Part shown: in pieces, positions 3,016 to 63,580 of the stretch
How positions within the stretch are numbered: position 1 is the first letter of the stretch
How the letters are laid out: every line of letters starts with the position of its first letter
Assembly: GCF_000012485.1 (NCBI RefSeq)
Contig: NC_007512.1
Location: 1,489,001 to 1,553,000, forward strand
Origin: Pelodictyon luteolum DSM 273
Lineage (GTDB): Bacteria > Bacteroidota > Chlorobiia > Chlorobiales > Chlorobiaceae
DNA: 64,000 nucleotides
Direction of reading: 5' to 3'
Program-made: the position numbers and the translations under genes
The notes under the pieces: generated by a model
Seen by the model: the letters and a program-made list of their open reading frames with translations, nothing else
Told to the model about the DNA's origin: nothing
The model's database searches: none

Positions 3016-3051
3016 CCCTGTCCGGAACCCTTTCCACGAACTCCTCCGCCC

Positions 3052-46622: not shown

Positions 46623-49313
46623 TCATTCAGTAACCCGAGACTGGACGACGTCCTCGTCAGCCGCGTCTTCCGCTCTCTTCAGCAATACGGTAAACTGACT
46701 CCCCCGGTCCAGTTCGCTCTGCACTCCGATGCTCCCCCCCTGCATTTCGACAATATCCTTGACAATGGCCAGACCGAGTCCGGTGCCCTCGATTTGGAAA
46801 GCACTAGGAACGCTCCGGTAGAATCGATCGAAGATCTTTTCGTGATCCGATGCGGCTATACCAATGCCCGTATCATCAACCGTAATAGAAACCATCTCTT
46901 CCGCCCCCGAGATACTGACCTTCACCCGACCACCCTTCGGAGTGAACTTCAACGCGTTACCAAGAAGATTCATCATGACCTGCTTGAGGGAGTCCTGGTC
47001 AAAGACGACACGGTGTTCCCTGTCCGGTTTCTCTTCAACAAGCTCAATCCCTTTCTCCTCAGCCTGCCGTCTCAGGATGGCAACAACAGCCGAAACAGGC
47101 TTTACGGGGTCAAAGATTTGCCGGCTGTACTTCGCCTTGCCGCTGTCAATGCGCGAAATGGTGAGAATATCCTCGATAAGACTTGAAAGCCGGACGCTCT
47201 CGTCATGGATGATTGAGGTGAACTCAAGACGGGTTGCAGGGTCCAGCGAGCCGCTTTCTTTGAGCAACGTGCTGGAAAAGCCGAGGATGGAAAACAGCGG
47301 AGTCCTGAGCTCATGAGAGACGCTGGAAATAAAATCGTTTTTGAGGCGGATGTTTTCCTGGATCTGACATTCATGTTTTTTCCGTTCACTGATATCGCGC
47401 ATGGTGCCGACTATTTTCATCAAGCCGTCAGGTACACCCTTGATGAGGCTGATTGCCAGTGATACGGTAATCGGCTCACCGCTCTTCGTGAGAAAATGGG
47501 CCTCGAAGTCCCTGAGGCTGCCCATGTCGGCCAATGCGCTGATCAAGCGGTCCCTTTCTTCCGGATTAACATAATAATCGAGCGACTGGCGGTGCAGGAT
47601 TTCGTCTCTTGTATAGCCGAAAGAACTGATGGAGGGGCTGATCTCCTCAATCGTACCCGTGGCAAGATTTACTTCAGCATAGACATCCTGAATGCTCTCG
47701 AAAATCGCACGGTACTTTGCTTCCCGTTCCCAAATCTGCTGCGCTGACTTTTCACGGTTCAGGGATCCGAAAATAAGATCACTTGCTAGTTGCAGGAGGG
47801 GTATATGATCTTCATGAAGGTTTAGAACTGAACTATTGACCCAGTCCAGCCCCAGAAATCCTCCAGAGAAACCGGCGGTCGAAACCGGCACGGCAACGAG
47901 AGAGCGGATGCCTTGGCGCTCAAGGTGTTCCTTTTCCACCTTCGCCTCCACGGGAAGAGCCGAAACGTCCGGGATAAAAATCGGTTCATGCCTTTTGATG
48001 CGCTCCATCCACCACGGAAACTCGTCAACAGCAAGCTGCTGCAACCCGTGTTTCTCCGCCGCTACACCTGCCGCACACCACTCGTAAGTATTGCTGACCA
48101 CCAGCCCGTCATCCGTGAACTGGAAGATGAAGCAACGGTCAGCCTTGGTAAATGATCCGACAAGTCCCAGAACGTGCTCAATACTCTCATCCAGCACTTC
48201 ACCAACCGGGGTCATGAGATACGTTGAGATATTGGCTAGCAGGCCCTGAACACCAAGCTTTGCCATCAGCTGCTGTTCACTGGCCATCAGTTGCTGGTTT
48301 GCCGCCATCAACTGCTGCTCACTGGCCTGCAGCTGCTGGTTTGCCACCATCAACTGCTGTTCACTGGCCTGCAGCTGCTGGTTTGCCGCCATCAACTGCT
48401 GCTCACTGGCCTGCAGCTGCTGGTTTGCCGCCATCAACTGCTGTTCACTGGCCTGCAGCTGCTGGTTTGCCGCCATCAACTGCTGTTCACTGGCCTGCAG
48501 CTGCTGGTTTGCGAGGCGGATTGCCTGCTCAGCCTCCTTACTTTCAGTGATATCACGAAAGGCCCCGATAAGGCAAGGCTTGTCGTTTACTACAACCTGA
48601 GCCGCAGTAACGCTTACTGGGATCCGCTTCCCCGATGCCGTCAGCACCTCCGACTCTATCACACGCAGCTCCCCTTTCGCCTGCCGTTCAAAAGCGCATA
48701 GCTGAGCCTCAAGCACATCAGGGGGATGTATGGAGTGGATCGAACGATGCAGCAGGACGGTGCGGTCGACCTCCATCATCGCTTCTGCCGCACTGTTGCA
48801 CTGCACGATCTGTTTCGTATCAATATCAGCGACCAAGAGAGCATCGGGAATGCCCTCATACAGAGCATGAAGCTGCGCCGCTTTTGCGGCCAGTTCATCT
48901 TCAAGCTGCCTGCGCTCCGTAATATCATAGTTGATGCCGATCATCTTCAGCGGTACTCCTGCTTCATCATACTGTACAACCGCGCTGGCTTTGATATGAT
49001 GGACATCTCCTGATGGATGTACGACCCGAAACTCTGTATCAAAAGGCTTTCCGCCGGTCATCGCCTCATCGGCTTCTCGGGCAGCACGTTCCATATCATC
49101 AGGGTGCAAACCATTCACCCAAGCCTCATATGCCCCGGAAAATCGATCAGGCTCAATGCCGTAAAGCCGGTACATCCAGTCGTCCCATACGAGCAAACTA
49201 CCGGCGATGTCATATTCCCAGATTCCTATCCCTGCACCGTCAACGGCAGCCCTCATGCGGCTGGACAGTTCGCGGTTTTCATTGTCTAGTCGTTCAAGGT
49301 CGCGGGCCATCAT
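46623..49313 (-). CDS. PAS/GAF sensor histidine kinase (C-terminal portion of a frameshift-split gene)
   Basis: This 896-residue frame has two PAS domains (about 20-135 and 145-262), then an 84-residue Gln-rich coiled coil made of six identical-length repeats. A GAF domain (about 365-520), a third PAS (about 540-655), HisKA with the His in SVSHELRTPL near 685, and HATPase_c (about 780-885) follow. No membrane segment is present. Its frame continues upstream past the ATG as FAGYSGLDRDITEER, the missing end of the PAS domain encoded by the frame at 49310. The two frames are therefore pieces of one gene with a one-base loss near 49360. The ATGA overlap could still allow this part to be translated alone. 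Confidence 0.85.
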   Translation of the reverse strand: MMARDLERLDNENRELSSRMRAAVDGAGIGIWEYDIAGSLLVWDDWMYRLYGIEPDRFSGAYEAWVNGLHPDDMERAAREADEAMTGGKPFDTEFRVVHPSGDVHHIKASAVVQYDEAGVPLKMIGINYDITERRQLEDELAAKAAQLHALYEGIPDALLVADIDTKQIVQCNSAAEAMMEVDRTVLLHRSIHSIHPPDVLEAQLCAFERQAKGELRVIESEVLTASGKRIPVSVTAAQVVVNDKPCLIGAFRDITESKEAEQAIRLANQQLQASEQQLMAANQQLQASEQQLMAANQQLQASEQQLMAANQQLQASEQQLMVANQQLQASEQQLMAANQQLMASEQQLMAKLGVQGLLANISTYLMTPVGEVLDESIEHVLGLVGSFTKADRCFIFQFTDDGLVVSNTYEWCAAGVAAEKHGLQQLAVDEFPWWMERIKRHEPIFIPDVSALPVEAKVEKEHLERQGIRSLVAVPVSTAGFSGGFLGLDWVNSSVLNLHEDHIPLLQLASDLIFGSLNREKSAQQIWEREAKYRAIFESIQDVYAEVNLATGTIEEISPSISSFGYTRDEILHRQSLDYYVNPEERDRLISALADMGSLRDFEAHFLTKSGEPITVSLAISLIKGVPDGLMKIVGTMRDISERKKHECQIQENIRLKNDFISSVSHELRTPLFSILGFSSTLLKESGSLDPATRLEFTSIIHDESVRLSSLIEDILTISRIDSGKAKYSRQIFDPVKPVSAVVAILRRQAEEKGIELVEEKPDREHRVVFDQDSLKQVMMNLLGNALKFTPKGGRVKVSISGAEEMVSITVDDTGIGIAASDHEKIFDRFYRSVPSAFQIEGTGLGLAIVKDIVEMQGGSIGVQSELDRGSQFTVLLKRAEDAADEDVVQSRVTE
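48261..48512 (-). repeat. 42-bp tandem repeat, six copies, encoding a coiled-coil
   Basis: Exactly six units of 14 codons (ANQQLQASEQQLMA with a few changes) lie between the second PAS and the GAF domain. Each unit is two heptads of the form xxQQLxA. The DNA is highly repetitive. Confidence 0.95.
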
Positions 49314-49924
49314 CCGCTCTTCTGTGATATCGCGATCCAGTCCTGAGTACCCGGCAAAGGCCCGTTGTCGTCATAGATCGGAACTCCGGTGGTAAGCAGG
49401 GTTATCAGCCGGCCGTCCTTGTGGATATTGATGTTTTCAATGGCATGAATCGGCTGCCGGCTCTCGACAAGCGATCCAAAAATCCCGCTGACGCGTACTG
49501 CCTCTTCTGGAGGCATGAATGCAAAGGGTGGCTTTCCGAGCAGTTCCTCCGGCTCATATCCCAGAGACTCTTTGACCTTAGAGCCAACACTGATATAGTT
49601 ACCCTGCACATCAACCTGCCAGAGCCAGTCACTTAGGGTTTCATGCAATACCGATTTTTCAAGTGTACGAAAATATTCAGCTGTCTTTCGTTCATCCATA
49701 AACGGGCGGCAGATCGCGGCTGACTGCGTTTCAACCCGCGCCAACGACTCCATAAGAGGCTGAATCGCATCAGAGCTGAGGCCTGCCATAGCAAGTTGGG
49801 AGTGTAATTCTGCAATATTCTGCAACAGGAGCTCAGCTGACTGTACAAGTGCGTGTCTCATAAGGGGGTGGGGATTACAGAGATCTATCGTTTGATCTGA
49901 TTTGCGCACATCCGGGGTGCTCAA
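49310..49924 (-). CDS. PAS-domain N-terminal portion of the split kinase
   Basis: This 204-residue frame has a helical N-terminus (about 20-95) and a PAS domain (about 95-195: LSDWLWQVDVQGNYISVGSKVKESLGYEPEELLGK, then HKDGRLITLLTTGVPIYDDNG). After that point the frame turns into an unrelated tail ending QKSG. The expected PAS ending appears in the next frame, so about one C is missing in GGGCCTTT near 49357-49363. Either a pseudogene-like split, a programmed shift, or a sequencing error. The divergent gene at 50095 shares the upstream region. Confidence 0.7.
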   Translation of the reverse strand: MSTPDVRKSDQTIDLCNPHPLMRHALVQSAELLLQNIAELHSQLAMAGLSSDAIQPLMESLARVETQSAAICRPFMDERKTAEYFRTLEKSVLHETLSDWLWQVDVQGNYISVGSKVKESLGYEPEELLGKPPFAFMPPEEAVRVSGIFGSLVESRQPIHAIENINIHKDGRLITLLTTGVPIYDDNGPLPGTQDWIAISQKSG

Positions 49925-50094: not shown

Positions 50095-51705
50095 ATGGAC
50101 ATGAATACTGATGCCAATATCCTGATAGTCGACGACGAGCAGGATACTCTTTTTGCCCTGAAGCGATATCTGCGGCTTGAGCCCTATACAACCCATTTCG
50201 CAAAAAGTGCAGAGCAGGCCTTAGAGACATGCGATACAATCAATATCGCCGTTGTTGTCACCGACCTCCGTATGCCGGGCATGTCCGGCAAAGAACTGCT
50301 TGACGCTCTCCAAGAGCGGCACCCGTTGATCGTGCGCATCATCATCAGTGGCACCGAGGATATCGGTATGATCATCGACTCGATCAATTCAGGAGTGATC
50401 TTCCGCTTCATCCCGAAGCCAATGGAGCCGGAACGCATGAAGGCAATCATCAGGGATGCCATAGCATTCTACCGGATGCAGCTGGAACACCGGGAGATGT
50501 CTGCCCTGGCCGAAAAGCAGAACCGGTACCTTACGCAGATCAATGATGAGCTGCGACTCATGACAACACGGCTTCAGGACAGCGAACAGCGCTTCCGGGC
50601 CATGAACGATGCGGCATTCGACCCTATTTTCCTTCTTGATGCAGCCGGCCGTATCGTCTATGCGAATGTGGCGGCCGAAACCATTTTCGGGTATACCCGC
50701 AAAGAATTTCTGTCGCTCCTGGTTGGCGATTTGATGACTCCGGAAAATATCAAAGCAGGAATAATTGAAAAACTGCTTACGTCGCTGAACACGGCACCGA
50801 AGGAACTGGAGATAGACTGCCTTAAAAAAGATGGAACCGATGTAAACATCGGGATTTCAGTTAACACGGCCAAGATCCTCTCGGTTCCGCATATCATCAT
50901 GATTGCCAGAGACAACACGCTCCGGGCCCAGGAAGAGAAAAGCCGGCTTGAACTGGAAAAAGTACAGAAGACGCTTGAATCCCAGATTGAACGACGACTC
51001 CTGCAGCGACATGTCCCGATTACGCTTGAGGGCGCCTCTATCAGCCACTTCATGCTCTCCTCGGGACACCTGAACGGTGATTTTTCAGACTTCATCGTCT
51101 ATGAACAACAGCTGGCTGATATCCTGCTCGGCGATGTCATGGGCCATGGCATCCTGTCGGCCCTGGTGGGATCGGGCATGAAATCACTCTACCTGAGGAC
51201 GATTGCGAGGAAAAGCTTCAGAAAAACCGTTCCTGAACTACAGGAAATCGTCACCGATCTCCACAGGGAGTGCATTCATGACCTGCTGGACATAGAAATC
51301 TATGCGACCATGCTCTTCTTCAGGCTTGACCTGAAACACAAGAGACTTTCGATGATTGACTGCGGGCATACTTCAACCATTCATGTCCATGCAGCTGACG
51401 CCACATGTTCCCTTCTGAAAGGATCGAACCTTCCGATTGGAATGGTTGAGGAGCAGGACTTCGCCTGCGTCGATGTGCCGATCGAGCACGGTGATACCAT
51501 CGTCATTTACTCCGACGGGATCACAGAAGCCCAGCTGCCCGATCGCTCGTTTTTCGGAGAAGATCGCCTCATCGAACTCGTTACCCGGCACCAAAAGGCC
51601 TGCACGGACGATATACTGCTCGCTATCCGCCAGGAGCTCTCTTCCGCAACAGGCGGAACTACCTTTGAAGACGATGCCTCGTGCATTGTCATCCGCATCA
51701 GCTGA
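50095..51705 (+). CDS. response regulator with PAS and PP2C-type (SpoIIE/RsbU) phosphatase output
   Basis: This 536-residue protein has a receiver (about 7-125, acidic pocket DDE near 13-15 and phospho-Asp 57 in [10 protein letters not shown]), a coiled-coil, and a PAS domain (about 165-285). The SpoIIE-type phosphatase (about 310-536) includes [21 protein letters not shown] and YSDGITEA. Such enzymes dephosphorylate STAS antagonists to start a partner switch. Two STAS proteins and an RsbW-like kinase lie 3-7 kb downstream. The likely input is the split kinase encoded divergently. A sigma-54 activator gene follows 7 bases later. Confidence 0.92.
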
Positions 51706-51712
51706 ATCGACT

Positions 51713-53002
51713 ATGGGCATATCCTCCATCCTCATCATCGGCGGCAAGCCCGGAACCTTCCGCCAAACCGCCCGGGCCCCCTTCAAAGTCACCTATGTGG
51801 ATGATGCCGGGGATGCTGCGGCAATGGTCAGAGACGACGAAATATTCCAGCTTGCCATCATCACCCTCAGCAAAACCGGACCCGCTGTTCTCCCCTTATG
51901 CAACAGCCTGCTGGAAGCCACCCCACCGGCAAAAGTAATGTTAGTTGCGGGTGATGACGAACTGCAGGAGATACTTTCCTGGCTTGCAGGACTCACTCCC
52001 GGGGACATCAACAGCTTTACCCGCAGCACCGCGCCTCTGCCGGAGAAAGAAAAAACGGTTACGAGTGCACTCCCGTCCCGCTTCGAAGGCCTCATCGGGG
52101 AGTCGCCGGAAATGAAGAAGGTAAAGACCCTGATAGAAAAAATCGCGCCGACGGGCACGACTATTCTGCTGCAGGGGGAAAGCGGTACAGGGAAGGAGGT
52201 TCTTGCCAGAGCCATCCACCGCAGCAGCGCACGTAGCGACAGGCCGTTCATCCCGGTTGACTGCGCAGCAATCAGCGGCACGATTATCGAAAGCGAGTTG
52301 TTCGGCCATGCTAAAGGAGCGTTCACCGGAGCGGACCGCAGCACGCTCGGCATGATCCGCTCAGCCGACAAGGGAACATTATTCCTTGACGAAATCGGGG
52401 AACTCCCGATGAACATGCAGGCCAAACTCCTAAGGACTCTTCAGGAAAGAGCCGTCAAGCCGGTAGGCGAAAGCAGGATCTACCCCGTCGACATCCGCAT
52501 TATCGCAGCAACAAATCGAAACCTCGCCGAAGGGGTCAAGAACGGGGAGTTCCGTGAAGACCTATACTACCGGCTCAATGCCATCACCATCTATGCCCCC
52601 CCCCTGCGCGAAAGAGCTTCAGACATCCCGCTGATCTGCCGCCACATCCTCAATCGCCTAGAGAACGAGGGATTTACACAAAAAACTATTTCAGAACGGG
52701 CATTGACCATGCTCTCGGCCTACGGATGGCCCGGCAATGTCAGGGAACTCGAAAATGTGATGCGCCGGGCCACCATGCTCACCAATGGCGACACCATTGA
52801 TACAGACGTACTGTCCTTTGAATCTGGCCACATGCTTGCCCTTGAAGCCTGCGATGTCAATCCCGGAAGCATGGCTTCACATGAAAAAGAGGCTATCCAG
52901 AAAGCCCTGCAGAAAACCTCGGGGAACAGACGTGCCGCCGCCGACCTTCTCGGCATCAGCGAAGCGACCCTGTACCGCAGGCTCAAGACCTACAGCATCT
53001 GA
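51713..53002 (+). CDS. sigma-54-dependent transcriptional activator with degenerate receiver
   Basis: This 429-residue protein has a receiver-like N-terminus (1-105) and an AAA+ domain with GESGTGKE at 155-162, GAFTGA at 202-207 (sigma-54 contact) and [10 protein letters not shown] at 221-230. A Fis-type helix-turn-helix lies at about 390-429. The receiver lacks the phospho-acceptor Asp: the third strand reads [10 protein letters not shown]. Control is therefore not by ordinary phosphorylation. ATG 51713 is used because the longer frame runs inside the previous gene. A matching sigma-54 promoter and palindrome lie just downstream. Confidence 0.92.
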
Positions 53003-53040
53003 CCCGCTCCGCTCCCCCCTCTCCACACACGCACAAGCAC

Positions 53041-53057
53041 CTCTCTCGATGAGAGAG
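53041..53057. promoter_or_regulatory. candidate enhancer-binding site (palindrome) upstream of the polysaccharide cluster
   Basis: CTCTCTC (53041-53047) and GAGAGAG (53051-53057) form a perfect inverted repeat, 107 bases upstream of the -24 element of a sigma-54-type promoter. Activators of this class bind such palindromes at about 80-150 bases. It could also be a weak terminator of the activator gene, but no T-run follows. Confidence 0.5.
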
Positions 53058-53162
53058 AGTATCCACTTTGACTTGCATTCTGAAAGCGAAGGTCCGCATC
53101 AAAGAAGACGTAAGTCACCCGAACAGCACGCAGACAAAGGCTCTGAAGCCCTCCCCTCAATT

Positions 53163-53178
53163 TGGCACTGTTCTTGCT
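53163..53178 (+). promoter_or_regulatory. sigma-54-type promoter of the polysaccharide cluster
   Basis: TGGCAC-N5-TTGCT has GG at 53164-53165 and GC at 53176-53177 with the obligatory 10-base gap, close to the consensus. It lies 53 bases upstream of ATG 53231 and 160 bases after the sigma-54 activator gene. Confidence 0.75.
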
Positions 53179-53230
53179 ATATTTTTCAAGATAAGAACGA
53201 GCCCATTTCCTTTAAACCGAAACAATACGG

Positions 53231-54061
53231 ATGGCTAACGAACAGCTCAACATGACCATGACCCGAACAGGACACATCATGATACTGGGATGCTCACACA
53301 AAACCGTGCAGCTGCAGGACCTGCTCGGAAAAAAAGGCCATATGGTATCGGTTGCCGGAAACCATGCTGCATATATAGACGCCATCGAAGCAAAGCCCCC
53401 CTACGAGATAACCATACTGACCGACAGCTTCGATGATGCACTCAATAGCTCGCTGCTGACCACTATCAGAACGTCCTGCCAGCCCGGCAACATCATCTGC
53501 CTCTGCAGTGGGGACAGCCCTGAAACGGAGCGCCTGATCCGGTCATCAGGCCCGGTTTTCTATGGCAGCTGCGAAAGTTTCATTGCAGAGGCTGACCGGA
53601 TCATCCAATCGTCATTGGCCGCATCCGGATCAAGAGCAAGCGACAAGAGGGCGGCATCGGCAAAAATGCTTGAGCAAAGACTTCTTACCCCCCCACCATT
53701 CACGTCGAACAGCCTCAGGTGCCAAATACATGCCGTGAGAACTGGTGCAGTTACAATAGCGGGTCGCTCAATGGAAGTACTTATGGCTCTGACGCTCCTT
53801 ACCCTGACAGGATTGCCTGTCCTGCTGGTGCTGGCGGCAAGAAAGCTTCTCAAGGGAACGCCGGTACTCGATACCGTTTCAATACGGACATCAACAGGAA
53901 CGGCAGTGAAAGCCTACCGGTTCCATTCCACCGGACATGCTTTTCGCGACATTCCGCTCGCAGTCCTGATTCTTTTGGGGAAACTCTCAATCATTGATAC
54001 GAATCAGCCTGACCACAACAGCGTAATGCAGTGGAATGCGCTGATACGTGATTTGCAATAG
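53231..54061 (+). CDS. receiver-like/degenerate sugar-transferase-like membrane protein
   Basis: This 276-residue protein resembles two known folds without their active residues. Residues 14-128 look like a receiver fold (HIMILGCS, EITILTDSF, NIICLCSG, PVFYGSCE) with no phospho-Asp pattern. Residues about 178-260 follow the outline of a polyisoprenyl-phosphate hexose-1-phosphate transferase: a hydrophobic hairpin (181-203), then TPVLDTVSIRTSTGTAVKAYRF in place of the usual GPV-x-Q-RVGRNG-F-KF block, then LGKLSIIDTNQP in place of KGDMSLVGPRP. It is first in the sigma-54-controlled cluster, directly before the canonical transferase. A regulatory or assembly role is inferred. Confidence 0.6.
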   Translation: MANEQLNMTMTRTGHIMILGCSHKTVQLQDLLGKKGHMVSVAGNHAAYIDAIEAKPPYEITILTDSFDDALNSSLLTTIRTSCQPGNIICLCSGDSPETERLIRSSGPVFYGSCESFIAEADRIIQSSLAASGSRASDKRAASAKMLEQRLLTPPPFTSNSLRCQIHAVRTGAVTIAGRSMEVLMALTLLTLTGLPVLLVLAARKLLKGTPVLDTVSIRTSTGTAVKAYRFHSTGHAFRDIPLAVLILLGKLSIIDTNQPDHNSVMQWNALIRDLQ

Positions 54062-54068
54062 GAACACC

Positions 54069-54788
54069 ATGGAACTCGACCCGACCGTCAGAAAAGAGCT
54101 GATCGAGAAAATCAGCGAGACCATCAGCCCTGCAGCCCAGAGACACAGGGCAATGCGGGTATACATCTGGGAAGCGACAGTCCGGGTCTCCTATAGACTG
54201 AAACGGCTGCTCGACATCACCGTATCGGTTGCTGCGACCATCCTGCTCATGCCGGTTTTCCTCATCACGGCGGCAGCAATCTGGATCGAGAACCCCGGAC
54301 CGGTACTCTTTGCCCAAACCAGGGTGGGTCGGAACGGCAGGCACTTCAGGTTCTTCAAGTTCCGCTCCATGGTAGTCAATGCCGACTGCATGAAAGATCA
54401 GCTTGCCGCAATGAATGAATCAGCGGCCGGAGTGATTTTCAAGATGAAAAAAGACCCAAGGATTACGAAAGTAGGGCGTATAATCCGTAAGTTGAGCATC
54501 GATGAACTCCCTCAGCTGCTTAATGTGCTGAAAGGTGACATGAGTCTGGTGGGCCCGAGGCCTCCGCTTCCACGGGAAGTCGCGGAATACACCCTCGAAG
54601 AACGCAAACGGCTGCATGTCATGCCAGGCATCACCTGTCTCTGGCAGGTAAGCGGAAGAAGCGACATCCCGTTCAACGAACAGGTCCTGCTTGACATGCA
54701 GTATATTCAAAGTTCCAGCATCACCAACGACATCGCCCTGCTTCTCAGGACAGTTCCTGCAGTGCTTACTGGAAGGGGCGCATATTGA
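54069..54788 (+). CDS. polyisoprenyl-phosphate hexose-1-phosphate transferase (initiating sugar transferase)
   Basis: This 239-residue protein has a hydrophobic hairpin (about 48-72), the KFRSM motif at 97-101, SIDELPQL at 143-150 and GDMSLVGPRP at 156-165, the complete catalytic core of the PglC/WcaJ/WbaP small-domain family. It loads the first sugar phosphate onto undecaprenyl phosphate, the starting step of exopolysaccharide or O-unit synthesis, at the inner face of the membrane. ATG 54069 has AGGA 5 bases upstream. It overlaps neither neighbour and is followed closely by a STAS gene. Confidence 0.93.
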   Translation: MELDPTVRKELIEKISETISPAAQRHRAMRVYIWEATVRVSYRLKRLLDITVSVAATILLMPVFLITAAAIWIENPGPVLFAQTRVGRNGRHFRFFKFRSMVVNADCMKDQLAAMNESAAGVIFKMKKDPRITKVGRIIRKLSIDELPQLLNVLKGDMSLVGPRPPLPREVAEYTLEERKRLHVMPGITCLWQVSGRSDIPFNEQVLLDMQYIQSSSITNDIALLLRTVPAVLTGRGAY

Positions 54789-54802
54789 CAACGAGAGCCA
54801 CT

Positions 54803-55156
54803 ATGGAATTCAGTGTCGACACATCAGCTGGAGTACGGGTAGGAGTGGCCATCCTTCCCGAACGCATCGACGCTGCCAGCTGTGCAGAGCTTCAGGCAGC
54901 GGCTGCGGGGTGGCTGAAACAGACGGCAAACCTGGTATTTGACTGCTCCGGCCTCGACTTCATCGACAGCAGCGGCCTCGGTGTTCTGGTTTCGACCCTA
55001 AGAAAGACCATTGAGCAAGATGGGGATCTCAAACTTGCCTGCCTCGGCATGAAAGCCTCCATGCTGATGGAGCTCACCAAGGCAAAACGGCTCTTTTCAA
55101 TCCATCCTGATGCCGTATCTGCCATAGCGGCCTTCCATGGAGGAGTGCGGCAATGA
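54803..55156 (+). CDS. STAS-domain anti-sigma-factor antagonist 1
   Basis: This single STAS domain of about 117 residues has the phosphorylatable serine motif FIDSSGLGVLVSTLRK near 55. Proteins of this type (SpoIIAA/RsbV) bind an RsbW-like kinase when dephosphorylated and release its target. ATG 54803 is chosen; a TTG at 54785 overlapping the transferase stop would add six residues. The stop overlaps ATG 55153 of the next, interrupted gene by ATGA. Confidence 0.9.
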   Translation: MEFSVDTSAGVRVGVAILPERIDAASCAELQAAAAGWLKQTANLVFDCSGLDFIDSSGLGVLVSTLRKTIEQDGDLKLACLGMKASMLMELTKAKRLFSIHPDAVSAIAAFHGGVRQ

Positions 55157-55239
55157 ACACAGGATCAGTGCAGACCCTCATCGTGCTGCGGGAAGAGGAA
55201 CACGCATGACTCCAGGACCTGTTCAGAAGCCGCCACCCG

Positions 55240-56544
55240 ATGCTGGTGACACTCTGCAACAAGCCCTTCATAGAGTATCTTATCGACTTTGCCATTCTTT
55301 CCGGCAGCGAAGCCTTAAGGATCGCAAGCGACAGCCCGATCACCGACCTGGAAAACTACTGCGGGAACGGAAGCCGTTGGGGCATCACCATCGACTATGC
55401 ACATATTCTTTTCGAAGATGACCAGGAACGGCTCCTCGAAAAGAACCGACAGTTCTGCTCCAGAGGCAAGACGATGCTGATTGAAAAAACGCTATTTGTG
55501 GCCTACGACAAAAAAAACGACTACAGACTATGGCTCAGGGCCTGTCCGGAAGGAGTCGCGGTTTCCGGCACGAGCGGATCAATCACCATCCTGGGTAACA
55601 AACAAGAGAACGCCATACCGGGACCCATTCCCGGGCCATCTCTTCCAATGCTCCTCACCATAGGGGAATACTACCGCCTTGCTGACGACACACTGAAGAA
55701 CGCAGATCGCTACATCCTCCCTGGCTACAGCAGCGAGCCCGACTGTTTTCTTGGAAGAAATGTGGTCATCCAGAAAGGGGCAGAGATCCGCAAGCCCGTC
55801 ATGATCGGCAACAATGTACAGATCTCGGCAGGCTCGATCATCGGCCCCGGTGCCATCATCGGCAGCAACATCATCATCGACAGGGAAAGCGTTGTTTCCG
55901 GAAGCATCCTCATGGACAACACCTTCATTGGCGAGCAGCTTGAAGTCAAAGGGAGGATTGCTGACGGCAGCCTCCTCATTGATCCCGAAAGCGGAGCGAC
56001 GCTGCAGATGGAAGACCCTCATCTGATGAGCGTCATCCAGCCCGGTGCATCGACAAAGCAGATCATCCGCCGCCTTATCCACGCCCTTGCAGCCCTCGCC
56101 CTGCTCATCGTCCTTGCCCTCCCGTTCCTCGTTCTCCGTCCCCTGCTCGGATTGCGCAGGAACTGGCATACGAAGAAACGCCTCTTCCCGCCGGGAGCAA
56201 CAGCAAAAAAACTCACCATTGAACAGGTCGTGATCAGACCCGAGGGAGCAGACGGCAGACTCGCCATTGCACTATCCATCGATCGATATCCCTCGCTTTT
56301 CAAGGTACTCGGCGGAAAACTCCGGCTGATCGGGCACCGTCCGGCAGTATCTTCGGATACATCAACAATCTCTTCAGGCTGTATCGCCATGAACCCTGCC
56401 GTTTTCGGTTATGCAGAAACTGAAGAGTGGCCCGAAAATGAGCGCGATGAACTGATGGTCGACCATTATCATCTTCTTCATAGCGGATCGCTTAACGACA
56501 TCGGCCTGCTTCTGAAAGCTTTACTGAACAAAAAACATATGTAA
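55240..56544 (+). CDS. nucleotidyltransferase-like/hexapeptide-repeat protein with sugar-transferase-like tail, interrupted near its start
   Basis: The product is 434 residues from ATG 55240. An NDP-sugar pyrophosphorylase-like region (LCNKPFIEYLIDFAI) lacks the GxGTR loop. It is followed by left-handed beta-helix repeats (about 165-230, VVIQKGAEIRKPVMIGNN). A hydrophobic hairpin (about 277-305) and a transferase-like tail come last, with GGKLRLIGHRP at 358-368 echoing KGDMSLVGPRP. The same frame runs back through an in-frame TGA (55207-55209) to ATG 55153, which overlaps the STAS stop (ATGA). The original gene therefore probably began at 55153 and carries a nonsense codon at position 19. It may be silenced, restarted at 55240, or a scaffold. 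Confidence 0.7.
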   Translation: MLVTLCNKPFIEYLIDFAILSGSEALRIASDSPITDLENYCGNGSRWGITIDYAHILFEDDQERLLEKNRQFCSRGKTMLIEKTLFVAYDKKNDYRLWLRACPEGVAVSGTSGSITILGNKQENAIPGPIPGPSLPMLLTIGEYYRLADDTLKNADRYILPGYSSEPDCFLGRNVVIQKGAEIRKPVMIGNNVQISAGSIIGPGAIIGSNIIIDRESVVSGSILMDNTFIGEQLEVKGRIADGSLLIDPESGATLQMEDPHLMSVIQPGASTKQIIRRLIHALAALALLIVLALPFLVLRPLLGLRRNWHTKKRLFPPGATAKKLTIEQVVIRPEGADGRLAIALSIDRYPSLFKVLGGKLRLIGHRPAVSSDTSTISSGCIAMNPAVFGYAETEEWPENERDELMVDHYHLLHSGSLNDIGLLLKALLNKKHM

Positions 56545-56557
56545 CACGGGAGGAAAC

Positions 56558-56881
56558 ATGAATATTGCAGAATCCACCATCAACGGCATAAAGGTACTCT
56601 CACTGGAGGGAGTACTCAACGCAGCTTCATCGCCAAAGTTCAAAGCCTATCTTGAAACGGCAGATCACTCCGGACCCATGATCATCAATCTGGAGCAGGT
56701 CGAGTTCATTGACAGCAGCGGGCTGGGGCTGCTGGTTAGGCTTGCCAGACAGAAAAAATCGGCCAATGAAGCCCTGAAACTGGCAAAGATGAATGACCGG
56801 GTGAAGCGCGTGTTCGAGATCACTCAGGCACACAGCCTCTTCGACATATATGATGACATTCAGGCAGCTGCCGGCAACTAA
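56558..56881 (+). CDS. STAS-domain anti-sigma-factor antagonist 2
   Basis: This 107-residue STAS protein has FIDSSGLGLLVRLARQKKS, with the conserved serine near 57-58. GGGAGGAAAC precedes the ATG, the strongest ribosome site in the cluster. It lies 16 bases before the RsbW-like gene, the classical antagonist/kinase pairing, so this one is the more likely direct partner. Confidence 0.93.
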   Translation: MNIAESTINGIKVLSLEGVLNAASSPKFKAYLETADHSGPMIINLEQVEFIDSSGLGLLVRLARQKKSANEALKLAKMNDRVKRVFEITQAHSLFDIYDDIQAAAGN

Positions 56882-56897
56882 TACCGGAGACCATAGT

Positions 56898-57335
56898 ATG
56901 ACTCAAATTCTTTCGGCAACCCTCAAAGCTGAACTTAGAAACAGCCGGATCGCCGCAAATATCGCCCGCTCAACCGCTGAAGTTTTTGCCGAAGAGCGCC
57001 ACTTTTCCGGAAATGTCCAGGAGTTCGGCCACACCTTTGAACTCGCCGTAAGCGAAGCGTTCACCAACTCCGTCAACTACAGGGATCCGAGCATCAAAGA
57101 CATTACCGTGACAATCGGCTTTGAGGAGGAAAGCAACGCACTGACGGCCAGCGTGACAGACATGAACGCCCCGTTCAACATCCACCCTCCTGAACCCGAA
57201 ATCACTGAATATCCGGAAGGGGGATTCGGACTGTTCATCATCTGGAAGCTCATGGACGAAGTCTCATGCAGTCGGGAAGGACAGAGCAATGTGCTCTCCA
57301 TGAAAAAATTCATCAGCAGGCCTGAAAACCCATAA
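56898..57335 (+). CDS. RsbW-like anti-sigma factor / serine kinase (HATPase_c_2)
   Basis: This 145-residue GHKL ATPase has an N-box ELAVSEAFTNSVNYRD near 50-65, a G1-type DMNAPFNIHPP, and a G2 box EGGFGLFIIWKLMDEV near 117-132. It should phosphorylate the STAS antagonists and sequester a sigma factor or another target. No sigma factor gene is adjacent, so the target may be one of the polysaccharide proteins. ATG 56898 is preferred over the earlier in-frame ATG that would lie inside the STAS gene. Confidence 0.9.
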   Translation: MTQILSATLKAELRNSRIAANIARSTAEVFAEERHFSGNVQEFGHTFELAVSEAFTNSVNYRDPSIKDITVTIGFEEESNALTASVTDMNAPFNIHPPEPEITEYPEGGFGLFIIWKLMDEVSCSREGQSNVLSMKKFISRPENP

Positions 57336-57351: not shown

Positions 57352-58326
57352 ATGGTATCGGTCATCATCGTCAGTTTCAACACCCGGGAAATCCTTGCAG
57401 AGTGCCTCATGAGCCTGTTCCGACATGCCGGAGAAGTCCCTATGGAAGTCTTCGTTGTCGACAACGCGTCCAAAGACGGATCCCCGTCGATGGTCAGGGA
57501 ACGGTTTCCTGCAGTCCGGTTGATTGAAAACAGTGACAACCGGGGGTTTGCAGCAGCTAACAATCAGGCATACACGCTCTCGCAGGGTGACTATGTCGTC
57601 CTGCTCAACCCGGATGCCTACCTTCAGCCCGAATCTCTGGCCAACGCGGTTGCATTCATGGACAGAACCACCGGATGCGGGCTCTCTGGCGGAAAAATCA
57701 TCTCCCCCAAGGGAACGCTCGAACCCTCGGCAAGGCGCTTTCCCTCAATCCGCTCAAAACTGCTGACCATCTCCGGCATCAGCGGCAGGTACCCCCGCTC
57801 CCCCATCCTGAACCGCCATGAATTCGGTGGATTCAACCACGACGCCCCCATGGAGGTCGACTGGGTCCCCGGGACCTTCACCATCGTCCGCCGGAGCATG
57901 CTTGAGTCGATCGGTTTTTTCGACGAACGCTTCTATCTCTATTACGAAGAAACAGACCTCTGCCGCCGTGCGAAAAATGCAGGCTGGAGCGTGTATTTCA
58001 TTCCCGATGCGTCAGTCATACATATCGGCGGAGCATGCAGCAAGACGAGAAAGGAAAAGACTTTTGACGATTCAGGATCACAGGTGCTCTCCTTCCGACT
58101 CCGCAGCGAATGCCTCTACTACAGAAAAAACCATGGAGCTGCAATGCTTATCGCATCAACAGGACTTGAAATCTTCTGGAACCTTCTGATCTTCACCAAA
58201 AACATGGTTATCCCCTCGGAAGAGGCGCAGAGAAAACGCACGGCATCGATTGGCATCGGCAAACAGACCCTCCGTGCACTAAAAGACACCCGCTTTGGCA
58301 CAATCTCACCACCAACTCCATGGTAA
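57352..58326 (+). CDS. family 2 glycosyltransferase (rhamnosyltransferase-like)
   Basis: This 324-residue GT-A enzyme begins VSVIIVSFNTREILAECL and has FVVDNASKDGSP, FAAANNQAY and the DxD-equivalent LLNPDAYLQPE near 82-92. WVPGTFTIVRRSMLESIGFFDERFYLYYEETDLCRR follows near 165-200. It resembles WbbL-type rhamnosyltransferases. It adds a sugar to the lipid-linked unit in the cytoplasm. 16 bases after the RsbW-like gene. Confidence 0.92.
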   Translation: MVSVIIVSFNTREILAECLMSLFRHAGEVPMEVFVVDNASKDGSPSMVRERFPAVRLIENSDNRGFAAANNQAYTLSQGDYVVLLNPDAYLQPESLANAVAFMDRTTGCGLSGGKIISPKGTLEPSARRFPSIRSKLLTISGISGRYPRSPILNRHEFGGFNHDAPMEVDWVPGTFTIVRRSMLESIGFFDERFYLYYEETDLCRRAKNAGWSVYFIPDASVIHIGGACSKTRKEKTFDDSGSQVLSFRLRSECLYYRKNHGAAMLIASTGLEIFWNLLIFTKNMVIPSEEAQRKRTASIGIGKQTLRALKDTRFGTISPPTPW

Positions 58327-58464
58327 TCATGAGACAACCCGCTCCCCGACAGCCAGACAGAAAAACAGCCGATACGATCAACATAACAGAGTAACATCCC
58401 ATTAACATTATGGCACGGATTGTCTGATTTCTGTGGCAGTAATGAAGGAATAATTCCCCCTGCA

Positions 58465-59553
58465 ATGCACCACAAATTTTCTTCTCCCCTGATACAACCG
58501 CCAGTCGTCAAGGTTTTACAGTGTCTTTTTCTGGCCTTGCTGCTCACCTCATGTGCGGGGCTTTCACCCAAGCCTACCAAAAACCCTCAATCACCGCCTC
58601 CCGGCAGGGACTTTACCATAAAGCTACCAGACAAATCCCCCATCTTCGCCAAGAAAGAAGACCTCAATAAAGAAATAAGCGAGGCAAAACCTTTCGAATA
58701 CCGCCTCGGACCGGGAGACATCATCGGCCTCAAGGTTTGGCGACGCCCCGAACTCTCGGAAGAACGAATGATCATCTCTCCGGATGGGTTTATTGCTACC
58801 CCCAGGGTCGGAATGCTCAATGTCAACGGTAAAACCCCTGACGAAGTCAAAGAATCGATTACTACAAAACTTGAGGTCCTGTACATCAAACCGGAAGTCA
58901 CCATACAGGTACATGATTTTCAGAATAACAAGGCCTATGTGCTTGGCAATGTCAACAAACCCGGGTTGGTACGATTCTCAGGCAGGGGGACGCTGCTCGA
59001 AGGCCTATCGCTTGCTGGCGGGGTCCCGAAAGAAGATCGTATGACCCGCTGTTCAATCATCAGGGGGAACGATCAGGTGATTTGGATCGATCTGCAGGAT
59101 CTGCTCTCGAACGGAAATATGAGCCTGAATACCACCATCCACAACAACGATATCATTTATGTGCCGGAACACGCCCACGACATGATTTATGTCATGGGAG
59201 AAGTCAAGACGCCCGGGGCAATCCCCATGCATGACGGCATGAGCGTACTCAAGGCAGTCATGATGGCAGGCGGCATCACACGAACGGGCAATGAGGAAAA
59301 AGTCTTCATCATCCGTCAGCAGGATACGAATGGCACAGTGGCTGAAATCAACCTCAAAAGACTGGTTGAAAACGCTGATTTCACCCGAAACTATACCCTC
59401 ATGCCCAACGACATCATATATGTCAGCCCCTCCGGCATGGCAAAGTTCAACTACACGCTTCAGGATATCATGCCGACGCTACAAATCATCAATCTGGGAA
59501 CATCTGCGCTGAATTCAGTCAATTCAACCATTATAATCCCATCTCAGCCTTAA
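58465..59553 (+). CDS. Wza-type polysaccharide export lipoprotein
   Basis: This protein of about 362 residues has a signal and lipobox (LLLTSCAG, Cys near 30). It has a Poly_export domain (about 75-160, YRLGPGDIIGLKVWRRPELS), then two SLBB domains (NKAYVLGNVNKPGLVRF and DMIYVMGEVKTPGAIPM). It forms the outer-membrane export channel with the Wzc-like protein. ATG 58465 gives a proper signal peptide; an earlier in-frame ATG (58420) would bury it. A gap of 138 bases precedes it and may hold a second promoter. Confidence 0.92.
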   Translation: MHHKFSSPLIQPPVVKVLQCLFLALLLTSCAGLSPKPTKNPQSPPPGRDFTIKLPDKSPIFAKKEDLNKEISEAKPFEYRLGPGDIIGLKVWRRPELSEERMIISPDGFIATPRVGMLNVNGKTPDEVKESITTKLEVLYIKPEVTIQVHDFQNNKAYVLGNVNKPGLVRFSGRGTLLEGLSLAGGVPKEDRMTRCSIIRGNDQVIWIDLQDLLSNGNMSLNTTIHNNDIIYVPEHAHDMIYVMGEVKTPGAIPMHDGMSVLKAVMMAGGITRTGNEEKVFIIRQQDTNGTVAEINLKRLVENADFTRNYTLMPNDIIYVSPSGMAKFNYTLQDIMPTLQIINLGTSALNSVNSTIIIPSQP

Positions 59554-59572
59554 CAGGTAATTCCGCCCAATC

Positions 59573-61828
59573 ATGCTGAAAGAACAGTCAACAAAAGATC
59601 CGCTACCATTGGGGAAACCCAGAAAGGCTTTCGACTTAGCGGGCTTTATAAAAAGGTACGGCTTATTCATCCTCCTGCTTGGCGGTTTCCTTTTCGCCAT
59701 GCTGACACCGCTTATCTTCATCATAAAAAAACCATACTACGAAGTTCATGCCCTCATGCAGGTTGACCCGACGGTACCTACCCTTTTCAGCAATACTGAA
59801 GAGTCCTCCATCGTGAGTTACTACCCGCGCTATATCAGCACTTCGGCTCAGGCAATGACAACCATCGACATCCTGATAAAAGCGCTTGATTCAATGAAAC
59901 CGGCTGACAGAGAGGCGCTCTTCCCCAAAGGGGTACCCACGGAAACTTGCGCAGCAATTCTTCACAACATGGTGTCGGTTACTCCGGGCAACAGGGATCA
60001 CATACTCACCCTTCAGATTTCCGGGAGCAAACCTGAGGGGCTTGCAGAGTTCCTCAATACTCTCATGCAGACCTATATGGAGGAAACCCGCAAAGCGAGC
60101 AACAACTCTAACAGCGACAGGCTCAAATTCCTCTATGCCCAGAAAAATGTCATCACGCAGGAGATGTCGGCCATTGAGCGGGATCTTGACAGCCTGACCC
60201 GGGATATCGGCACATCATCTTTTTCTGAAACCTTTAATATCGCAGCAAAAAACAGCGACAACCTCTTACGGTCCTACAACTCTGTCCTGAATGAACGACT
60301 TGCATATGAAACAAATTACAGGGCCCTGCAGCAATCAAATAATGCGTTAAAAAAAATCGCTCTTGACCCCTTAGTCAATGAAATTGTCTTGAATAACAAT
60401 GCCTTGACTAATACAGAATCATGGACCTACCAGCAGCTCCAACAGCTGAGAAGCACCACCGACGGGCTGACAGAAATAAACCCGGAGCGTATTTATGTAG
60501 AAGGACAAATGAAATCAATGAAATCCTATGCACAGGAGCTCCGTGAAGAAGTACGCAACAAGGCAAAAAACATCACCCTTGGCAAAAGAGATATAGACAT
60601 GCAAAAGTCGGTAATCATCGCCAAAAACAATTATGAAGCCGCACAAGCAAGAGAAGACACCCTGCGGGTTGCAATCAATGAAAACAGCAAGGAAGCAAAA
60701 CGCATCTCGATAGGCATCCACAGAGGCGAGTATCTTTCAGCCAACTGGCAAAACAAGTTCGACCTCCTCAACAACATTGAAAAACGCATTACAGAAATTG
60801 AAATCGAGAAAAAATCCCCCCTGCGCCTTTCCGTTCTCTCTATTGCCCGCACACCGAAACAGCCGCTGAAATCAAACATCAACAAGATAACGATCCTGCT
60901 TCTCGTCGGCAGTTTCGGCCTCGTGGGCGGGGCGTTTGCAACATATGAATTTTTTGACGACACCATTAGAAGCAGCAAGGATATCACGCATGCACTTGGG
61001 CACCCTCCCGTGCAAACCATCGTCAACCTCAGGGCGCCGAATGCAGAGGATCAGGAACAGCTTAGCCTTGCTCCCGATGATTTTCGGGCACATCAGATCG
61101 GGAGCCTTGCCGTCAAATTCTTTAGGGAAAGAACATCGAGCAATGCTAGGGCGCTCATTTTCACAGGTACGGATAAGGGGGTAGGATCATCAGCCATCAC
61201 ATTCAGCTGTGCCAAAGCCCTCTCGCAGCTTGTCCCGAAAGTACTCATTATCGATGGAGACATCGAAGCCGCGCCAATCGACGAGGACGATGAATTCCAG
61301 ATCAGCCTGCCGGGGCTCTGCGATTACCTGGCCGACTCAATGACGCTGGAAGAATGCATAGTCAGCACTCCCGGTGACAATATTGATATGATGTATGCTG
61401 GCAATATCACCGGTAGAAGTGTCCCGCGCCAGAAAATTCCTGAACTCTTTGCTGAACTGAAAGAGAAATACGATTTCATCTGCGTGGACAGCACCCCCCT
61501 TCTCAAAAGCCACCTGGCTGAGCAGTTCGCCATGCATGCCGATATCGTAACACTGATCTCACTCGGCGATAGCTCTAAATTCAGGGATCTGAGAAAAGCT
61601 GCAGCTTTGCTGGTTCTGCTTGGAGTACCGAGCATCGCGCCCATCCTGAATTTCGGGGGGATCCGCAAAACTCTGACTATTGCCGAAATGTTCGACAACC
61701 CCCCCGCCCTCATAAGCAAAGTGGTTCCAGAAAAGATGATTGACGGCATACGGCGTTCGCCGGTCGGGATCCGCATGATTGACAAGCTACTGCAGTTCAC
61801 ACAGAAACTCCAGCAAACAAAAGATTAG
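59573..61828 (+). CDS. Wzc-like polysaccharide co-polymerase with degenerate ATPase domain
   Basis: This 751-residue protein has a Wzz domain (first helix about 28-50, second about 440-460, long coiled coil between, about 170-400). A cytoplasmic BY-kinase-like ATPase domain (about 525-720) follows. The Walker A reads FTGTDKGVGSSAI at 530-542, with serine in place of the P-loop lysine. The DGD of the second Walker motif (about 563) and VDSTPLL (about 637) remain. There is no C-terminal tyrosine cluster. It sets chain length and opens the Wza channel; kinase activity is doubtful. Confidence 0.9.
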   Translation: MLKEQSTKDPLPLGKPRKAFDLAGFIKRYGLFILLLGGFLFAMLTPLIFIIKKPYYEVHALMQVDPTVPTLFSNTEESSIVSYYPRYISTSAQAMTTIDILIKALDSMKPADREALFPKGVPTETCAAILHNMVSVTPGNRDHILTLQISGSKPEGLAEFLNTLMQTYMEETRKASNNSNSDRLKFLYAQKNVITQEMSAIERDLDSLTRDIGTSSFSETFNIAAKNSDNLLRSYNSVLNERLAYETNYRALQQSNNALKKIALDPLVNEIVLNNNALTNTESWTYQQLQQLRSTTDGLTEINPERIYVEGQMKSMKSYAQELREEVRNKAKNITLGKRDIDMQKSVIIAKNNYEAAQAREDTLRVAINENSKEAKRISIGIHRGEYLSANWQNKFDLLNNIEKRITEIEIEKKSPLRLSVLSIARTPKQPLKSNINKITILLLVGSFGLVGGAFATYEFFDDTIRSSKDITHALGHPPVQTIVNLRAPNAEDQEQLSLAPDDFRAHQIGSLAVKFFRERTSSNARALIFTGTDKGVGSSAITFSCAKALSQLVPKVLIIDGDIEAAPIDEDDEFQISLPGLCDYLADSMTLEECIVSTPGDNIDMMYAGNITGRSVPRQKIPELFAELKEKYDFICVDSTPLLKSHLAEQFAMHADIVTLISLGDSSKFRDLRKAAALLVLLGVPSIAPILNFGGIRKTLTIAEMFDNPPALISKVVPEKMIDGIRRSPVGIRMIDKLLQFTQKLQQTKD

Positions 61829-61829
61829 T

Positions 61830-62339
61830 ATGAAGACAAGCCGGCAGGTGATTTCAGCAACAGAGCCAGACTTGAGCAGAGAACAGGCCATCCCGGGCAA
61901 ATACGAACCGGGCAAATACCTTCTGGCATCAATACGGCGCTATCAGTCTTTAAGAACAAAAGGCCCTACAGGTAAGTTGCTTTCAAAAATCACCGTACTA
62001 CAACACCGATTCTGGAGCGCGGTTTGTGGAGCGGACATCCCAATCAATGCCAACCTCGGAGGAGGTCTCCTGATCCCTCACCCAAACGGCATCGTGATCC
62101 ATCCTGCGGCAATAATCGGTCCCAACTGCCTGATCATGCATCAAGTCACTATCGGCACTACGGGAAAAGGGACTCCAATCATTGAAGGCCATGTTGATAT
62201 AGGTGCTGGCGCCAAGATCTTGGGAGAAGTACACATTGGGGCCCATGCACTAATAGGAGCCAATGCGGTGGTACTCAAAAATGTACCGGCAAACACGACC
62301 GCAGTCGGCGTACCGGCAAGAATCAAGGGTAATCCGTGA
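61830..62339 (+). CDS. serine acetyltransferase-like (hexapeptide) O-acetyltransferase
   Basis: This 169-residue left-handed beta-helix protein shows a CysE/WcaB-like core: HRFWSAVCGADIPINANLGGGLLIPHPNGIVIHP, the catalytic His in CLIMHQVTIG, and repeats up to AVVLKNVPANTTAVGVPARI. Without the CysE N-terminal domain it is probably a polysaccharide acetyltransferase of the EpsB/WcaB type, not the cysteine enzyme. It lies one base after the wzc-like stop and overlaps the next gene by GTGA. Confidence 0.88.
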   Translation: MKTSRQVISATEPDLSREQAIPGKYEPGKYLLASIRRYQSLRTKGPTGKLLSKITVLQHRFWSAVCGADIPINANLGGGLLIPHPNGIVIHPAAIIGPNCLIMHQVTIGTTGKGTPIIEGHVDIGAGAKILGEVHIGAHALIGANAVVLKNVPANTTAVGVPARIKGNP

Positions 62340-63580
62340 AAAAGAAACCGTATGATCAATTGCGGAAAATGAAAGAGAAACATTCGACACGGTTATGCAT
62401 AGCTTACGCTGCCGGACCGGGTGATATCGTTAAAACATTTTCCTACTGGCAGAAAGGAAACGACGACCCTCATCAGGTTTCGACAACCTATAGCGCAATG
62501 TTCTTTGATGCATGCCGTTCGCTCAATGCGAGGGGTATCGCCATTTCTTCATGCCCCAGAAAAGACCGTATCGTCACGGACCGGTTCCATGTCGAAAACC
62601 TCCCTAAAAATCCGCAAGCGAATGCCATTGCGTTTCATAAGGAACAGGTCAGCTATGTTCTAAGGGTTGCTGATTTTGCTAAAAAGCAGGGTGCAGACTT
62701 CCTGATCCTCAGTGAGGCTACAGGATATTTTTTCCCGCTTCTATGGGCAATACCCTCAAGGATGAAGCTGATCCCCACGCTGCACTGCAACCTCAAGTCT
62801 CGTTTTCGGCCTCTCTCTGCAGCTCAGAAGCTGATACAGTTCATGAATGCTATGTTTTTCATCAGAAAAGCATCGGCCATCATGTCCGTTTCACCAAGCG
62901 TAACCGAACAGATTGAGGGGATGACTTACGCCATGGCCTCACCGGTCCATCGCTTCTATCAGCTCTATCGACGAAAGTATTTTGAGTGTATCAACCCGCC
63001 AATACATCATAATAAACCCTTCAATATTCTGTTCGTAGGGCGGATGGAAACCGATAAAGGCATTTTTGACCTGCTTCAGATCGCCAGGGACCTCAGAGAA
63101 AAAGGACACACGGACATCGTCATCAATCTTTGTGGTGGAGGATCAGAAGAAACCGGGCTGCGCATGGCAGCATCAGCGTATGGGATAGAGGAAACATTCC
63201 GAATCCATGGCTTCTGCCGCCAGGACGAAATGCTTGAGCATATCAACAATAGCCATGCATTCATCGTGCCGACAAGAACAACATTCGAAGAAGGGTACAA
63301 CAAAGCACTTGTGGAGGGGCTGCTTTCAGGAAGACCGGTCATCACATCCATTGTATGCGCCTACCCCCACCTTGAAGAGCTCAACAGCGGAATCATTCTT
63401 GTCCCGCCTGATGAAACTGAAGGGTACCGTGAGGCCATTGAACGACTGGCTTACGACAGCGCATTTTATGCAGAAAAACAAAATGGAACTCAGAGGGGCA
63501 TGGAACCATTTTTCGACCCGGCATGCTCTTGGCAGGCCGTGCTAGAACGCATCATTACAAACATACGGAAGCATGGGTAA
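62336..63580 (+). CDS. family 4 glycosyltransferase
   Basis: This 414-residue GT-B enzyme has an N-terminal half with GDIVKTFSYW and a C-terminal GT4 domain (about 220-395). The latter contains FNILFVGRMETDKGIFDLLQIA, FRIHGFCRQDEMLEH and the E-x7-E motif EEGYNKALVEGLLSGRPVI. It uses an NDP-sugar to extend the repeat unit. GTG 62336 overlaps the previous stop. The polymerase-like gene overlaps its 3' end by 8 bases. Confidence 0.9.
   Translation: MKKKPYDQLRKMKEKHSTRLCIAYAAGPGDIVKTFSYWQKGNDDPHQVSTTYSAMFFDACRSLNARGIAISSCPRKDRIVTDRFHVENLPKNPQANAIAFHKEQVSYVLRVADFAKKQGADFLILSEATGYFFPLLWAIPSRMKLIPTLHCNLKSRFRPLSAAQKLIQFMNAMFFIRKASAIMSVSPSVTEQIEGMTYAMASPVHRFYQLYRRKYFECINPPIHHNKPFNILFVGRMETDKGIFDLLQIARDLREKGHTDIVINLCGGGSEETGLRMAASAYGIEETFRIHGFCRQDEMLEHINNSHAFIVPTRTTFEEGYNKALVEGLLSGRPVITSIVCAYPHLEELNSGIILVPPDETEGYREAIERLAYDSAFYAEKQNGTQRGMEPFFDPACSWQAVLERIITNIRKHG

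Follow-up and report, generated by a model that had tools for sequence, protein, structure and literature searches.

The nearest described system to the locus reported here, judged by analogy, is the syp polysaccharide locus of Vibrio fischeri, and the parallel between the parts is close. Our locus lies in the green sulfur bacterium Pelodictyon luteolum DSM 273, in a window (the whole stretch of DNA analysed, 64,000 bases) that spans bases 1489001-1553000 of a genome made up of a single contig of 2,364,842 bases; in it, a phosphatase, two STAS proteins and an RsbW-like serine kinase are encoded in one operon with an initiating phosphoglycosyl transferase (PGT). In V. fischeri, the STAS protein SypA acts below transcription on a protein target that the portions of PMC10120452 drawn on here give as yet unknown; in the corresponding portions of this and two other papers, SypE is described as a post-transcriptional regulator of SypA, and SypG as acting at the level of transcription (PMC10120452, PMC12369376, PMC4517449). 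Going by these portions, both are polysaccharide loci with a single-domain STAS protein, a serine kinase and phosphatase, a receiver-linked phosphatase, a sigma-54 activator and a histidine kinase, the last being split in the window. They differ in that SypE, as described there, unites kinase, receiver and PP2C phosphatase in one protein, whereas the kinase and the PP2C are separate genes in our locus. Our locus also has two STAS genes, an activator with a pseudo-receiver and, between the STAS genes, a gene for a dead-PGT fusion protein that we call NTLB (syp was not searched for NTLB).

Other systems resemble the locus in part. HmpU, HmpV and HmpW of Nostoc punctiforme, a cyanobacterial system, comprise a STAS protein, a kinase and a phosphatase encoded in a locus for motility and polysaccharide, and according to the sections of PMC8256260 used it is unknown whether this STAS protein has a direct target; Anabaena all4160, which these sections cite with a paper on the heterocyst envelope polysaccharide, is a glycosyltransferase with an N-terminal STAS domain. 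Compared by description, the former shares with our locus the STAS protein, the kinase, the phosphatase and the link to polysaccharide, and the latter joins STAS and glycosyltransferase in one chain, in an arrangement unlike that of the WecG-STAS-STAS proteins described below. All three core parts of the switch belong to the same protein families as SpoIIAB/SpoIIAA/SpoIIE and RsbW/RsbV/RsbU, systems from which the locus differs in that it has no linked sigma factor and that the presence of its genes tracks a polysaccharide protein. In the literature, for which open-licence papers were covered, we found none that links a phosphoglycosyl transferase to partner-switching, or Chlorobium exopolysaccharide to an anti-sigma factor antagonist.

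We suggest, with a probability of about 0.5, that the locus encodes a partner-switching module that acts on the machinery for polysaccharide initiation instead of on a sigma factor. Direct action on polysaccharide enzymes, one of the outputs envisaged in the original prediction, is supported indirectly by three patterns: STAS and NTLB genes adjoin each other in several phyla, WecG-STAS-STAS fusions occur, and the kinase tracks NTLB. The Pfam scan, from which the domain calls for window genes derive, also bore out the predicted receiver-PP2C phosphatase, two STAS proteins and RsbW-like kinase beside an initiating transferase, as well as the predicted absence of a sigma factor gene, since no Sigma70_r2 gene was found in the window. 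The transferase does lie among the switch genes as described; the GT2 glycosyltransferase and export genes, which had been placed among them too, lie just past 57335, where the predicted module was said to end.

Conservation and co-occurrence of the switch genes

NTLB was found at E < 1e-100 in 28 of 296 genomes of the phylum (the source genome among them); 11 further genomes gave matches at weaker E-values, two of which (loci L091 and L092 in our numbering) match the beta-helix and PGT parts. The gene order PGT-STAS1-NTLB-STAS2-RsbW is kept in all 28 green sulfur loci, window included, and the PP2C gene is seen in 26 of them, the stretches of L073 and L086 ending before it. Since this order is kept although the kinases of 11 aligned relatives are only 40-60% identical to the RsbW of the window, it reflects more than chance; a neighbourhood that fails to be conserved, which had been named beforehand as evidence to the contrary, is not what the survey returned. 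The presence of the RsbW-like kinase also tracks NTLB across the family. Among 86 family genomes, 38 have NTLB, and a cluster-type kinase (174.9 bits or more; the next match reaches 65.8) is present in 38/38 carriers as compared to 1/48 of the others (genome G161).

The residues on which a switch of this kind would depend are largely kept. We took the phospho-acceptor to be the first Ser of D-S-[S/T]-G, as placed by S56 of SypA in the relevant part of PMC10120452. In the green sulfur loci this position is Ser in 27/28 STAS1 proteins (Thr in L082) and in 28/28 STAS2 proteins, and in distant loci it is Ser in 35 of 36 STAS domains and Thr in one, so that a loss of the STAS serine where the kinase is unlinked, an idea we had considered, was rejected. 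In the second domains of fused STAS pairs the acceptor Ser is kept and the preceding Asp is lost (Ala in 5 of the 36 distant domains). The kinase, homologous to RsbW/SpoIIAB by its sequence, retains the catalytic Glu and Asn in 28/28 loci.

The pairing of STAS with NTLB extends well beyond the green sulfur bacteria. A contig scan with a 12-row NTLB alignment gave 120 confirmed loci, 80 of which were kept: 31 classed as Chlorobiaceae (including L122, Chlorobiota, and L158, Chlorobiales) and 49 outside. The matched protein carries a PGT-like domain in 23 of these 49 and is without one in 26. Of the loci with the domain, 21/23 have a STAS, as a separate gene or a fused unit, immediately upstream of NTLB (the exceptions being L094 and L118), versus a STAS within 1.5 kb in 1/26 of those without it (L137, with a short NTLB; Fisher p 1.3e-10, uncorrected for relatedness). 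These 21 STAS-paired loci include members of Desulfobacterota, Cloacimonadota, Armatimonadota, Chloroflexota and Chlorobi/Ignavibacteriales relatives, as well as L117 and L165, whose record names look doubtful. Ahead of NTLB, the Chloroflexota loci have a double STAS domain, cut in L098 by the contig end. It is fused to a WecG/TagA glycosyltransferase, as WecG-STAS-STAS, in 3/3 Chloroflexota proteins tested with Pfam and, by hidden Markov model (HMM), in L108 and L190-L192. Proteins with HATPase_c_2 are encoded somewhere in the genome in 12/12 distant genomes tested.

Active and degenerate transferases

A joint alignment of 30 loci (the 28 green sulfur loci, window included, together with L091 and L092) separates the PGT from its paralogue. 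The catalytic Asp-Glu (DE) dyad is present in the PGT of all 30 loci and absent from the C-terminal domain (PF02397) of NTLB in all 30, where the two positions read DR in 26, SR in 2, DH in 1 and ER in 1. In a PDB profile alignment this NTLB column falls on the D-E of PglC, which we take to be its catalytic dyad. The pattern holds in other phyla, with the dyad found in 18/18 PGTs and absent from 19 of 21 NTLBs (L118 and L145, which have a PGT-like domain too, were left out of this count); of the remaining two, L093 is unaligned and L119 has DE. The protein that we call MYST, encoded just before the PGT, is also without the dyad in 17 aligned loci, so that two "degenerate paralogues" with a degenerate Bac_transf domain are present, as had been proposed. 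In 5/5 MYST relatives scanned, a WecG/TagA domain comes after this one; the MYST of the window lacks it. The N-terminal part of MYST has a receiver fold in a structure model of middling confidence (mean predicted local distance difference test score 69.5). Two other PGT genes of this genome lie more than 100 kb from any STAS gene.

The N-terminal half of NTLB appears degenerate in most cases as well. G-x-G-x-R is the nucleotide loop motif of nucleoside diphosphate (NDP)-sugar pyrophosphorylases, and it was not seen in 30 NTLB N-termini inspected by eye, among which the window row starts after an in-frame stop (see below). The Ignavibacteriales protein L119, which adjoins STAS and PP2C genes, has retained the DE dyad and, as judged by eye, also the nucleotide loop, and its sequence makes it a plausible ancestral, active form of NTLB. 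The L095 protein, from Chloroflexota, has a full-length nucleotidyltransferase part with a strong Pfam match (101 bits); such a match was rejected as a sign of activity by itself, because L095 outscores L119.

A structure model of NTLB was made for the relative L170 rather than for the window copy, and the whole-model fold search covers residues 1-292 in most rows; its matches include GMPPA/GMPPB, VTC1-KJC2 and eIF2B. Support for the pseudo-PGT half comes not from this search but from profile matches to PglC and WbaP. The eukaryotic systems GMPPA/GMPPB, VTC1-KJC and eIF2B epsilon/gamma share with the L170 model a nucleotidyltransferase-like domain joined to a beta-helix. The dead subunits of these systems are regulatory, and we know of no PGT domain or STAS partner in any of them.

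Some minor observations concern relatives of NTLB. Nitrospirae L118 has, at positions 2503-4281 of a 7-kb contig on which no STAS was detected, a gene fusion whose match to the PGT domain is strong (222 bits). Searches of PHROGs gave weak, unnamed matches only, all to the beta-helix part of NTLB. A plasmid home for the NTLB relative L138 was considered and rejected, there being no match in PLSDB.

Proposed mechanism and its alternatives

Our best reading of these patterns has two layers: the activator would set transcription, and the STAS switch would gate polymer initiation at the protein level through the PGT and NTLB. The upstream-encoded histidine kinase, which probably belongs to the switch system, would signal to the receiver-PP2C phosphatase, which would in turn dephosphorylate STAS1 and STAS2; the RsbW-like kinase would phosphorylate both on the Ser of D-S-[S/T]-G. 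Unphosphorylated STAS proteins would then bind a complex that the active PGT forms in the membrane with NTLB, its dead paralogue, which contributes an NDP-sugar-synthase-like domain joined to the pseudo-PGT; this binding would either permit or block the step in which undecaprenyl phosphate receives the first sugar. In loci that have it, the sigma-54 activator would independently drive the operon from the -24/-12 promoter. We infer all binding and phosphorylation steps, the direction of control and the role of NTLB as the receiving subunit; for the order of events and for the sign of control, we rely on guesses borrowed from syp. Light or redox sensing, which the original prediction had proposed, found no support: the domains detected are generic PAS/GAF, one simple motif search of the kinase, phosphatase and activator gave no LOV-type motif, and the ligands of PAS domains cannot be read from sequence.

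More broadly, we tentatively propose, at odds somewhat short of even, that the locus represents a widespread class of switches in which phosphorylation-controlled STAS proteins gate the initiating PGT of a surface polysaccharide via a dedicated dead paralogue (a nucleotidyltransferase-like domain with a pseudo-PGT), so that serine phosphorylation would control the first membrane step in making the polymer. If true, serine partner-switching would be tied to the direct control of glycan initiation at the membrane, and bacteria would offer a case in which a dead sugar-transfer enzyme acts as a regulator. For non-sigma STAS switches such as SypA, the locus family also names candidate targets: the PGT that starts the polymer, and NTLB as the dead paralogue of that PGT.

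Several points weigh against these proposals. The G1 box of the kinase reads D-x-N, and not D-x-G, in 28/28 loci. The 26-locus control for STAS pairing is weak, consisting mostly of plain nucleotidyltransferases from other taxa, with some contigs ending close by, and our counts are uncorrected for phylogeny. The fusion found in Chloroflexota involves WecG rather than the PGT or NTLB, and is rare, a full-length match occurring in only 4/199 genomes of the class. In several Cloacimonadota and Armatimonadota loci where STAS lies beside NTLB, no linked kinase or phosphatase was detected, and the nucleotidyltransferase part of L095 may, from its sequence, not be dead. Genome G161 (L173) has a free-standing PP2C-STAS-RsbW set without PGT or NTLB, near which no polysaccharide gene was recognised by HMMs in 19.5 kb, nor by Pfam in four neighbours. 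Extra PP2C-STAS-RsbW sets lie beside a sigma-54 activator in L124, L160, L174 and L175 (L160 and L175 are probably one locus), and the NTLB carriers G308 and G304 have such a second set adjoining a sigma-54 activator. Finally, the switch may be impaired in this very genome, with its sensor kinase frameshifted and a stop in NTLB.

This last point leads to an alternative that is compatible with the family-level proposals, namely that the module is decaying in this strain and regulates nothing. The histidine kinase is split into two frames around 49349-49361, where the relative L064 has a single frame of 1076 amino acids. NTLB has an in-frame TGA at 55207-55209, and its frame in the window is open from 55240; the frame is open at the TGA site in L064 and L065, whose proteins are 99 and 98% identical. 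Together with the WecG domain missing from MYST, these interruptions would fit decay, and the module had been overstated as "complete" for this genome. The key residues of STAS1, STAS2, RsbW and the PGT are kept, however, translation of NTLB could restart at 55240, and both interruptions might be sequencing errors. We consider decay unlikely, though with a sizeable chance of being correct.

We regard it as improbable that the switch controls the sigma-54 activator, with STAS or RsbW binding its pseudo-receiver and thereby regulating transcription of the operon. The activator gene sits between the phosphatase and the operon, and its N-terminal part resembles a receiver without the phospho-Asp (compared by eye in the window and 7 carriers), so another input may be needed. 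RpoN is present in the genome, and between the activator gene and MYST lies the only sigma-54 promoter match of the window at up to 1 mismatch; since 2.4 matches are expected by chance against the 1 observed, the evidence for a promoter resides in the place and conservation of the site. Counted from the end of the upstream gene (activator or phosphatase), a match lies between -100 and +450 bases in 8/11 loci with the activator versus 0/15 without it (p 1e-4, uncorrected; 2/28 loci were uninformative); the three carriers without a match include L066, where the activator is in two pieces, and L067, where it lies downstream of the operon. These data, as well as the extra sets adjoining an activator, would suit control of the activator. 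However, the whole switch is kept without an activator gene in 15/26 loci, within the stretches read, which makes the activator unlikely as the general target, and outside the green sulfur bacteria many loci have STAS beside NTLB with no activator detected. The activator, offered earlier as a possible point of action, is therefore the less likely output.

Even less favoured is an action of STAS on another cluster enzyme instead of the PGT and NTLB, most likely the WecG/TagA transferase. The direct fusions in Chloroflexota and the WecG genes beside the module in many relatives speak for such a target; yet the MYST proteins of the window strain and its two closest relatives have no WecG domain although both STAS proteins and NTLB are present, the stretches around L168 and L170 showed no WecG, and none was detected beside STAS-NTLB in L123 and L157.

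The three Sigma70_r2 genes of the genome all lie outside the window and comprise an open frame of 359 codons and open reading frames (ORFs) of 209 and 180 amino acids; from length and sequence, the first may be RpoD and the two short ones extracytoplasmic function (ECF)-like, with no SigB-like sigma factor evident. A conventional switch, in which RsbW sequesters one of these unlinked factors (RpoD or ECF) and merely lies in the cluster, would agree with the homology of the kinase and with a Chlamydia Rsb network that acts on the primary sigma factor (known to us from a title in the reference list of PMC8256260), but is very unlikely given that there are only these three candidates and that the kinase accompanies NTLB so closely, which is unexpected for a general sigma switch.

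Layout of the locus

The features of the locus are listed below, including the polysaccharide genes that follow the switch.

Features of the switch and polysaccharide locus, in positions of the window
Feature	Position	Strand	Basis and remarks
Histidine kinase (PAS/GAF, HisKA, HATPase)	46623..49924	-	Divergent from the phosphatase gene; overlapping frames 46623-49313 and 49310-49924
Receiver-PAS-PP2C (SpoIIE-type) phosphatase	50095..51705	+	Pfam, PF07228, E 2.6e-38
Sigma-54 activator, AAA+ and HTH_8	51713..53002	+	Pfam; N-terminal part compared with 7 carriers by eye
Sigma-54 -24/-12 promoter match, 0 mismatches	53163..53178	+	Motif search
MYST: pseudo-receiver and degenerate Bac_transf	53231..54061	+	Relatives and fold model; no Pfam match in window copy
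PGT, active-type initiating, DE dyad intact	54069..54788	+	Pfam Bac_transf (PF02397); PDB matches WbaP/PglC
STAS1, phospho-acceptor Ser of D-S-S-G	54803..55156	+	Pfam; ORF opens with TTG at 54785, conserved Met at 54803
NTLB: pseudo-nucleotidyltransferase, left-handed beta-helix, membrane helix and pseudo-PGT	55153..56544	+	Pfam, profile matches
STAS2, phospho-acceptor Ser of D-S-S-G	56558..56881	+	Pfam
RsbW-like serine kinase (HATPase_c_2)	56898..57335	+	Pfam
GT2 glycosyltransferase	57352..58326	+	Pfam
Polysaccharide export protein, Wza-like, Poly_export/SLBB	58420..59553	+	Pfam
Chain-length determinant / bacterial tyrosine kinase (BY-kinase)-like, Wzc-like	59573..61828	+	Weak Pfam AAA_31; NCBIfam tyrosine-kinase and chain-length models below cut-off
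Hexapeptide acyltransferase-like protein	61779..62339	+	Pfam
GT4 glycosyltransferase (Glycos_transf_1)	62336..63580	+	Pfam

The downstream polysaccharide genes differ from their surroundings in base composition, with a G+C content of about 0.49 over 58001-64000 as compared to 0.55-0.60 in most of the window, as is seen for acquired DNA. Elsewhere in the genome, two sets of STAS and HATPase_c_2 genes (L001, at 1188283-1191591, and L002, at 982519-985827) are equal in STAS score and spacing, and probably represent a duplicated region.

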